Shown here one piece after another: positions 17,758 through 46,537 of a stretch of 60,834 nt of DNA (position 1 is its first letter; each line of letters starts with the position of its first letter). Position numbers and translations under genes: made by a program. The stretch comes from Candidatus Woesearchaeota archaeon (GTDB lineage: Archaea; Nanobdellota; Nanobdellia; Woesearchaeales; JACPIF01). The stretch is taken from NCBI GenBank assembly GCA_016188215.1, contig JACPIF010000003.1, positions 99,388 through 160,221 on the forward strand. The letters are read 5' to 3'. The notes below the pieces were generated by a model. That model saw only the letters and a program-made list of their open reading frames with translations. It ran no database searches and had not been told where the DNA came from.

Positions 17758-17869
17758 GGCGGGATGGCAGAATTAGGTCAATGCGACTGGTTCAGAGCCA
17801 GTTAGGTCACCACACCTATGCGGGTTCAAAACTTTTTCGAAAGAAGGAGTGTTAATCCCGCTCCCGCCG
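17758..17869 (+). tRNA. tRNA-Leu(CAG) with T-loop insertion
   Basis: Acceptor GGCGGGA (17758-17764) pairs with TCCCGCC (17862-17868). T8 and G9 are followed by the D arm GCAG-AATTAGGTCAA-TGC. Anticodon stem ACTGG/CCAGT encloses TTCAGAG, giving anticodon CAG. The variable arm TAGGT-CACCAC-ACCTA marks a type II tRNA, as leucine requires. T stem GCGGG (17820-17824) pairs with CCCGC (17857-17861), but 32 bases lie between them instead of 7. The loop begins TTCAAA and ends T, so about 25 bases (17831-17855), including a CTTT-TTCG-AAAG hairpin, are an insertion at about position 59/60. A clean bulge-helix-bulge is not evident. Discriminator 17869 is G, where archaeal tRNA-Leu normally has A. No CCA is encoded. 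Confidence 0.85.
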
Positions 17870-43911: not shown

Positions 43912-43962
43912 AGGACAAACGCTGCAGAGGTTTATTTAAAAACCTTTTGCCAAAATTAAAAA

Positions 43963-44107
43963 TAGCCCCGGGCAGACTTTCGTGGCACATTCCTTAATGC
44001 ACCTGTTCGAACTGCCGTCAAAGCCTTTCTTTTGTCACCGAAGCAACAACCAGAGGGCTCTATCCTTGACCGCTAGATACCGCGAGATTTTATCCCTCTA
44101 CGGGGCT
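43963..44107 (-). tRNA. tRNA-Gln(CTG) with three introns
   Basis: Read on the minus strand from 44107. Acceptor AGCCCCG pairs perfectly with CGGGGCT (43970-43964), and A73 is at 43963, both typical of archaeal tRNA-Gln. D stem ATCT/GGAT encloses AGCGGTCAA (44074-44066). Anticodon stem GAGCC (44060-44056) pairs with GGCTT (44025-44021), loop CTCTGG, anticodon CTG. T stem GGCAG (44016-44012) pairs with CTGCC (43975-43971). Three insertions: about 20 bases between acceptor and D stem (about 44079-44098), 23 bases after position 37 (44027-44049) and 29 bases after TTCGAA in the T loop (43977-44005). The last forms a bulge-helix-bulge: TTCG pairs CGAA, flanked by 3-base bulges AAC and AGT. The second does so with one mismatch (CTCT/AAAG, bulges GGT and AAA, inner helix TGTTGC/GTGACA). 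Splicing leaves 73 nt, a perfect length. Confidence 0.88.
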
Positions 44108-44215
44108 ATGTGTCAAGCGGGGCATTTAGCCAAGATAAAGCCAACATATTTAAAGTTTATTGAAGCGGGGCGCTGCACAAACATTTAAAAGTAAAAAAGC
44201 AAAGCATCCTCACCC

Positions 44216-44548
44216 ATGCAATTCAAGACTATAGATGAAGCCGCAGCAATCCTTGCAGATAAGATTCTGGATCATCCTTTGAGAAGGGTTCGGGCTGTAC
44301 AGTTAGCGCAGGCAGAGGATGGTAGTGAGCCCCTGCATTATTTAGCAGTCCGAGCCTGCAACCAGTTGCTGGGCGGCTATTTCCCGCTTGGGGATGTTGC
44401 AAGTTATTGGATTTATATTGACCAATTGATGCTTCCAATGGGCTTTCATGTCAGGAGAAGAACGCCAGGAGAAGCACTCTGGTTACTGGTCTCTACTGCG
44501 GAAAAGATAAGAAATGCGGCTGTACCTTCTTATTACGCCGGGAACTAG
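44216..44548 (+). CDS. Hypothetical protein
   Basis: A 110-residue soluble protein without a recognised family; it is helical with a Leu/Ala-rich centre. ATTTAAAAG about 30 bases upstream suggests a leaderless transcript. It is convergent with S3Ae, overlapping its stop by 4 bases, and divergent from the tRNA-Gln. Confidence 0.55.
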   Translation: MQFKTIDEAAAILADKILDHPLRRVRAVQLAQAEDGSEPLHYLAVRACNQLLGGYFPLGDVASYWIYIDQLMLPMGFHVRRRTPGEALWLLVSTAEKIRNAAVPSYYAGN

Positions 44549-45201
44549 GCTGCTGAAACTTCAGCTTTAGATTCAGGCTCATGCGCGCTGAGTTCCTTTA
44601 CTATCTGCACAAGGCTTCTCTCATCGCTTGCATCCTTGGTTATCTCAAGGGTCCTAATCTCAAGGGCTTTCAGGGGATATATCCTCTTTAGCATGCCCCT
44701 GAGCTCTTCCTGGGGCTTGTAATCAACAATATCCCGTAATAAGTCTATCAGTGACTTCTGCTTTGCATACTTGATGAGATATTCCCTGGATATCTTGCGC
44801 AGCCTTGTCTTGATGGAATCCTTAACCAGGTTGCGGGTGAGCATGAACGGCTTTATCTTTATCTTGATGCCTTCCGCAGTCTCGCAGAGGATTGAGTCAT
44901 CAACACGGTCGGTCCTCCTGCGCACTAACCGCTTCAATGAGGAAGCCATGATGTAGTAGCCGACAGGATCTGCCTGCGCCTGGGTTTCATTTGCGCTGGT
45001 CACCATGAACTTGATATTGACGTGCTGCTTCTTGGGGTCATTAGTCAAGGTCATAAGGTTTGCAAGCAAAGTCCTTCCTACTAACGATTTAGCCTCAAAT
45101 GCAGGCGTCTCGCCCACAGGCATGTCCTCCAGCCTGGGTGCAACTACAGGATACCACTTCTTCTTCCTGATTACCGCTGCTGCTGTTTTTGCTTTTGCCA
45201 T
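44545..45201 (-). CDS. rps3ae: Ribosomal protein S3Ae (eS1)
   Basis: A 218-residue 30S protein. KKWYPVVAPRLEDMPVGETPA is the family opening, followed by LVGRTLLANLMTL, RRRTDRVDDSI and LVKDSIKTRLRKISREYLI. The C-terminal Ala/Glu-rich tail is short. It is a single gene on the minus strand. Confidence 0.95.
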   Translation of the reverse strand: MAKAKTAAAVIRKKKWYPVVAPRLEDMPVGETPAFEAKSLVGRTLLANLMTLTNDPKKQHVNIKFMVTSANETQAQADPVGYYIMASSLKRLVRRRTDRVDDSILCETAEGIKIKIKPFMLTRNLVKDSIKTRLRKISREYLIKYAKQKSLIDLLRDIVDYKPQEELRGMLKRIYPLKALEIRTLEITKDASDERSLVQIVKELSAHEPESKAEVSAA

Positions 45202-45946: not shown

Positions 45947-46537
45947 ATGAGAACTAATGTAGCTGCCTTTATAATCGCGTCTGAAAACAGGGAACGGATA
46001 GTGAGAACTCTGCTCGAATACCCGGACCGGGAATGGAGTTGTCCTAGTGTTGAGGATGCGACCAAGCTGCCTCATGCCACAGTATTCCGCACCTTAACCG
46101 GCCTGAAGCGCTTTGGGATGCTGAAAACTAGCAAGATAAACAGGAAAAACATTGTTTATGAGGTAGCAGAAAGCCCTCTAAAGCAGGAATTTGAAAGAAT
46201 GCTCAATATTGAACAGATTGCTGCCAAAAGTATTGCCCAGAGTTTTGTTGATAAAGCAGCTTCCAGGGAGGTCTATTCAATCATACTCTTTGGATCAAGT
46301 GTAAAAGGAGATATGAGGCCAGAGAGTGACATTGATATTCTCATTGTTTTAAATAAACATGATCGGGAATTGGAGATTAAGATACAGGATATTGCTGCCC
46401 AGATATCAAGCGATGCAAATAAAACAATTTCCACTGTAATTATGGATAAGAAAGAAGTGCAGAAAGAAATCAATACGCCTTTTATAAAATCTATCCTGGA
46501 GAACATGGAGCTATTGTATGGAAAAAACCCATTTTGA
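45947..46537 (+). CDS. MNT nucleotidyltransferase with N-terminal winged helix
   Basis: A 196-residue protein. Residues 1-80 are a winged helix (HATVFRTLTGLKRFGMLKTSK) for DNA binding. Residues about 105-190 are a minimal nucleotidyltransferase: IILFGSSVKGDMRPESDIDI carries the GS-x(10)-DxD motif. In MNT-HEPN systems the MNT protein AMPylates and silences the HEPN ribonuclease encoded next. Overlap with that gene is 20 bases. Confidence 0.88.
   Translation: MRTNVAAFIIASENRERIVRTLLEYPDREWSCPSVEDATKLPHATVFRTLTGLKRFGMLKTSKINRKNIVYEVAESPLKQEFERMLNIEQIAAKSIAQSFVDKAASREVYSIILFGSSVKGDMRPESDIDILIVLNKHDRELEIKIQDIAAQISSDANKTISTVIMDKKEVQKEINTPFIKSILENMELLYGKNPF

Follow-up and report, generated by a model that had tools for sequence, protein, structure and literature searches.

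Pre-tRNAs with three introns have been described in Pyrobaculum, namely tRNA-Pro(UGG) and tRNA-Glu(UUC) (PMC4090602, PMC4390854). Like the tRNA-Gln(CTG) gene analyzed here, these Thermoproteales transcripts contain three bulge-helix-bulge (BHB) introns, one at the canonical position and two elsewhere (PMC4090602, PMC4390854). However, they represent another lineage and other isotypes, their hosts possess (alpha-beta)2 endonucleases, and the introns of P. islandicum tRNA-Pro are located at 25/26, 37/38 and 56/57 instead of 10/11, 37/38 and 59/60. Multiple tRNA introns were also reported for ARMAN, Nanoarchaeum and others (PMC4033280) and for Caldiarchaeum (PMC3293823); ARMAN-2 (Micrarchaeum) is likewise a DPANN archaeon whose tRNA genes carry multiple introns (PMC4033280). 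In the Asgard Atabeyarchaeia and Freyarchaeia, a different phylum that likewise carries abundant non-canonical and multiple introns outside Thermoproteales, more than half of the tRNA genes are multi-intron (PMC11291895). A eukaryote, the red alga C. merolae, likewise has three introns in its tRNA-Ile(UAU), in the D, anticodon and T arms (PMC9602550). The sequence-only reading of the locus had considered three introns in one tRNA very rare outside a few Thermoproteales. This view is contradicted by the literature (PMC4033280, PMC3293823, PMC11291895, PMC9602550) and by the many Woesearchaeales genomes described below.

The list of intron positions given in the text of PMC4090602 includes 59/60 and not 10/11, but it ends with 'etc.'; we claim no novelty for the 10/11 position. 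No literature on tRNA introns in Woesearchaeota was found in a search that covered few subscription journals.

Structure of the interrupted tRNA-Gln(CTG) gene

The window (the whole stretch of DNA analyzed, 60.8 kb) belongs to a genome of 1.11 Mb in 13 contigs that is 91% complete. When S3Ae was used as the query, no relatives were found, and EF-1A was used instead. The best EF-1A matches were overwhelmingly labelled Woesearchaeota or Nanoarchaeota, and by this protein the host is placed in Woesearchaeales (DPANN) and not in Thermoproteales. Among the compared genomes it is alone in its family.

The pre-tRNA-Gln(CTG) comprises 145 nt on the minus strand (43963..44107), in which four exons alternate with three predicted BHB introns. 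Read from 44107 to 43963, exon 1 (AGCCCCGTAG, nt 1-10; 44098..44107) is followed by the 20-nt intron 1 at junction 10/11 (AGGGATAAAATCTCGCGGTA; 44078..44097) and by exon 2 (TCTAGCGGTCAAGGATAGAGCCCTCTGG, nt 11-37; 44050..44077), which contains the D arm, the 5' anticodon arm and the anticodon CTG. The 23-nt intron 2 occupies the canonical junction 37/38 (TTGTTGCTTCGGTGACAAAAGAA; 44027..44049) and precedes exon 3 (AGGCTTTGACGGCAGTTCGAA, nt 38-59; 44006..44026) with the 3' anticodon arm, the variable region and the 5' T arm. The 29-nt intron 3 interrupts the T loop at junction 59/60 (CAGGTGCATTAAGGAATGTGCCACGAAAG; 43977..44005), and exon 4 (TCTGCCCGGGGCTA, nt 60-73; 43963..43976) completes the gene. 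All exons lie in order within 145 nt, so a split or permuted tRNA was rejected.

With the three blocks removed, ARAGORN called the 73-mer a tRNA-Gln(ctg) in which every stem is paired; our own scorer assigned the same identity with the top score of this analysis. By both programs the invariant bases and the anticodon CTG are intact. ARAGORN found no tRNA in the raw unspliced 145-mer, and neither ARAGORN nor Rfam detected anything in whole-window scans. With a relaxed threshold, Rfam returned only weak unrelated matches over the locus.

In each 3-nt bulge of a BHB motif, archaeal endonucleases cut between the second and the third base; by this rule the junctions were set at 10/11, 37/38 and 59/60. 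The BHB of intron 3 has a fully paired central helix (TTCG/CGAA, 4/4) with bulges AAC and AGT, the T stem outside and an inner helix of 8 bp; with helices on both sides it fits the strict hBHBh' form. Intron 2 has three of four central pairs (one mismatch) and a 6-bp inner helix. In intron 1 the central helix CCGU/GCGG is paired 4/4, the bulges are AG|A and UA|U and the inner helix has 5 bp, but the outer helix is absent, making this a relaxed motif. The sequence-only reading had given the same limits and the same block sizes (20, 23 and 29), and had described the T-loop motif and the single anticodon mismatch just as they are found here. It had located one intron near position 8-10; the BHB rules place it at 10/11.

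A cut at 9/10 would be an alternative for intron 1, since the shifted A10/G10 still pairs with U25 and the D stem is paired with either cut. We regard it as very improbable: only 10/11 yields the 4/4 central helix together with 3-nt bulges, and uninterrupted relatives have G10.

The unconstrained fold of the 145-nt precursor (z = -2.5) reproduced the T-loop BHB exactly and also formed the acceptor stem and the hairpin of intron 1; the anticodon BHB was present with a shift of one base. When isolated regions were compared with shuffles, the T-loop region (z = -3.2) and the anticodon region (z = -2.0) folded better, and the first 46 nt of the precursor folded no better (z = 0.4). A scan of both strands of the 60.8-kb window, with up to three BHB introns allowed, gave two loci, tRNA-Gln(CTG) and a tRNA-Leu(CAG) at 17758..17869. 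The same scan of one dinucleotide-shuffled window gave zero loci.

A TATA-like box (TTTAAATA; 44147..44154, minus strand) starts 47 nt before the 5' end of the mature tRNA, but it is weak evidence, since the window contains this octamer 20 times; the same octamer is found at -55 of the other tRNA-Gln gene of the genome, Gln(TTG). Directly 3' of the gene, a T-rich stretch (TTTTTAATTTT; 43952..43962, minus strand) is likely the transcription terminator. The gene for ribosomal protein S3Ae (44545..45201) lies upstream on the same strand, and Gln(CTG) adjoins S3Ae also in the genomes G009, G053 and G050. On the plus strand, the product of 45947-46537 has a nucleotidyltransferase domain in its C-terminal part and matches FUR weakly at its N-terminus. 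Nine ORFs of the window use CAG more often than CAA (94:27).

Interrupted tRNA genes in the genome and in Woesearchaeales

The only other tRNA-Gln found in the genome has the anticodon TTG (C2:188508-188607). It shares exon 1 with Gln(CTG), as do the relatives, and has no anticodon intron. Its T arm (GACGGCAGTTCGAATCTGCCCGGGGCTA) lacks intron 3 and is identical to the T arm obtained by joining exons 3 and 4 of Gln(CTG). One 27-nt intron is present, with the same 10/11 junction and the same central helix as intron 1 but a different body; it is independent of intron 1.

The two spliced Gln tRNAs served to build a covariance model, by which the Gln genes of relatives were collected. The orthologue L261 (genome G084) comes from another family and has predicted introns of 18, 21 and 18 nt at 10/11, 37/38 and 59/60, respectively. 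Its intron sequences differ from those in the window while the exons are identical at 71 of 73 positions, and the two differences form one compensatory pair in the anticodon stem (A-T to G-C). Other Gln(CTG) genes, likewise from other families, carry introns at 10/11 and 37/38 (L260, G112), at 21/22, 37/38 and 59/60 (L194, G050), or at 21/22 and 37/38 (L177, G009). L180 (G052) has the 21/22 intron alone and none at the three sites of the present gene, and the genes of G042 and G055 are intron-free at all these sites. Site 37/38 is thus intronic in L261, L260, L194 and L177, and site 59/60 in L261 and L194. By this comparison the insertions can be removed and have come and gone at fixed sites: the same exons occur with different subsets of blocks, as removable blocks require. 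Together with the perfect spliced tRNA, these relatives bear out the sequence-only reading of a tRNA-Gln(CTG) with three removable introns.

The 10/11-intron Gln pattern matched in 15 of 374 genomes of the class, i.e. the host and 14 others, with 0 control matches. In all 16 introns of this set the central helix is paired 4/4, and they contain 91 consecutive inner-helix pairs (shuffles: mean 10.9, maximum 25). The 59/60-intron pattern was observed in 143 of 353 genomes of the order, but control matches were also common, so this count does not give a clean prevalence. Among 30 inspected 59/60 loci, 20 had the full flanking T stem; the isotypes were Lys, Leu, Ala, Pro, Glu and Gln, and some genes had three predicted introns. 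Multi-intron tRNA genes, as predicted from these genomes, are widespread in Woesearchaeales.

A decaying tRNA pseudogene, or a chance assembly of tRNA-like pieces, would explain why the standard finders are blind to the locus, and CAG could in principle be read by Gln(TTG) through wobble. We consider such an origin very improbable, because all stems and invariant bases are intact after block removal, the insertions end at BHB junctions and not randomly, and the L261 orthologue with the same junctions is identical at 71 of 73 positions, the differences forming a compensatory pair. In addition, a second Gln(CTG) gene, named by the sequence-only reading as the contrary observation to look for, was not found in the 91%-complete assembly, although an intact copy could be absent from that assembly. 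Almost certainly, the locus is a functional tRNA-Gln(CTG) gene of an archaeon, and its transcript contains EndA-type BHB introns at three sites, 10/11, 37/38 and 59/60.

Introns at 59/60 were also found in other tRNA genes of the same genome: Leu(CAG), Lys(CTT) and Asp(GTC), to which visual inspection adds the tRNA gene that follows Asp. The tRNA-Leu(CAG) (17758..17869, plus strand) has a 25-nt intron, was revealed by the BHB scan and was missed by ARAGORN and Rfam at normal thresholds. For tRNA-Lys(CTT) (L021) our own scanner gave no convincing anticodon-loop intron solution, and the T-loop intron alone is secure. The tRNA-Asp(GTC) at L247 (G000:C9:16750-17350) has introns of 87 nt at 37/38 and 80 nt at 59/60. 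The gene after it is a probable tRNA-Lys(TTT), the 59/60 intron of which nearly matches that of Asp over its first ~45 nt, and a piece of ~30 nt recurs in the Asp anticodon intron. To judge from these matches, introns have likely been copied among the tRNA genes of this locus. The genome also has a tRNA-Leu(CAA) with a D-loop intron (L019) and a tRNA-Phe(GAA) with predicted D-loop and anticodon introns (L022). One weak match to the tRNA model (L018, G000:C2:150541-150596) is no tRNA and consists of AT-rich inverted repeats (GCAAACTTGCC/GGCAAGTTTGC, TTTAAACCCATGA). In a partial census (L001-L023), only 16 tRNA genes of the 91%-complete genome scored above the Rfam cut-off, and many further ones are probably hidden by introns.

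Splicing enzymes and the rtcB gene

Both an EndA gene and an RtcB gene are encoded in the genome. EndA is a single protein of 200 aa that consists of an N-terminal and a catalytic domain, and its closest solved relative is the catalytic alpha subunit of N. equitans (3iey_A, E = 5e-37). The N. equitans enzyme has a separate beta subunit, whereas no EndA paralogue or beta-like subunit was detected in this genome at E <= 10. ARMAN-2 EndA is a three-unit epsilon2 enzyme with an ARMAN-specific loop (PMC6379350), unlike the single unit here, in which the ASL Tyr-Lys is absent at the aligned place. Seven aligned EndA homologues showed no insertion in the specificity-loop region, and PF01974 matched exactly once in 112 of 120 sampled genomes of the order and twice in four.

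According to reviews, relaxed BHB motifs are removed efficiently only by (alpha-beta)2 and epsilon2 enzymes (PMC6379350). If this rule holds, the present genome poses a puzzle, as it has relaxed motifs yet only one detectable EndA gene. A divergent beta subunit in the lineage is possible. Removal by a route without EndA, e.g. as self-splicing RNA, is extremely improbable: an apparently single-gene EndA without a broad-specificity loop makes the relaxed motifs puzzling, but BHB hairpins of 18-46 nt fall far below the size of group I and group II introns, no such family was shown by Rfam at the locus, and the fully paired central helices of the whole 10/11 set speak against such a route.

In the EndA-dependent pathway that we propose, EndA would cut pre-tRNA-Gln(CTG) between bases two and three of each 3-nt bulge, and RtcB would join the exons, with the predicted junctions TAG^TCT, TGG^AGG and GAA^TCT, into a 73-nt tRNA reading CAG. 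Intron 1 would probably be cut early, while the RNA is nascent or not fully folded, because its central helix occupies nt 5-8 and the acceptor stem needs nt 5-7 as well. The predicted probability of this helix is ~0.93 in nascent RNA of 30-35 nt, variable between, and ~0 in the full transcript; at some transcript lengths the nascent helix is predicted to be unstable.

Two 31-nt insertions, both of perfect BHB geometry, interrupt the rtcB gene itself (G000:C11:8649-10018; L262 1157-2684), which lies outside the window. Their central helices are GGGG/CCCU and UUCG/CGAA, with inner helices of 10 and 9 bp, and removal of both insertions restores the conserved motifs HWGYGFPIGG and GGIGFDINCG. The first insertion has an in-frame TGA right after the interrupted codon. 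Ten of 353 genomes of the order, from three families, carry it at this codon, with 0 control matches, and its inner-helix changes across relatives keep pairing. The rtcB introns predicted in this genome and in G205, G209 and G232 measure 30-33 nt. Seven of nine relatives have no break at the site of the second insertion, and in the other two that site was not located. In the literature, an archaeal protein-gene BHB intron was found for cbf5 (PMC2738675). EndA and RtcB may splice the rtcB mRNA, in which case the ligase would need itself for its own mRNA.

We tentatively suggest, while thinking it rather doubtful, that a single-gene EndA without a beta subunit or CSL/ASL loop, features regarded as necessary for broad specificity, might remove relaxed BHB introns, including the 10/11 class in which the recognition helix excludes acceptor pairs 5-7, and might also splice the conserved rtcB mRNA introns, forming an autoregulatory loop.

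Significance for tRNA genes of the order

The kind of gene described here is already known; the interesting parts are the order-wide intron pattern and the enzyme puzzle. Triple-intron tRNA genes, as predicted here, would belong to the normal gene set of a large, uncultivated order of DPANN archaea. As interrupted tRNAs are missed by ARAGORN and Rfam, tRNA counts may be too low. Introns that repeatedly come and go at fixed sites of near-identical tRNAs would provide a natural experiment on intron turnover, and the evolutionary rule on which enzymes remove relaxed BHB introns becomes testable in this lineage.
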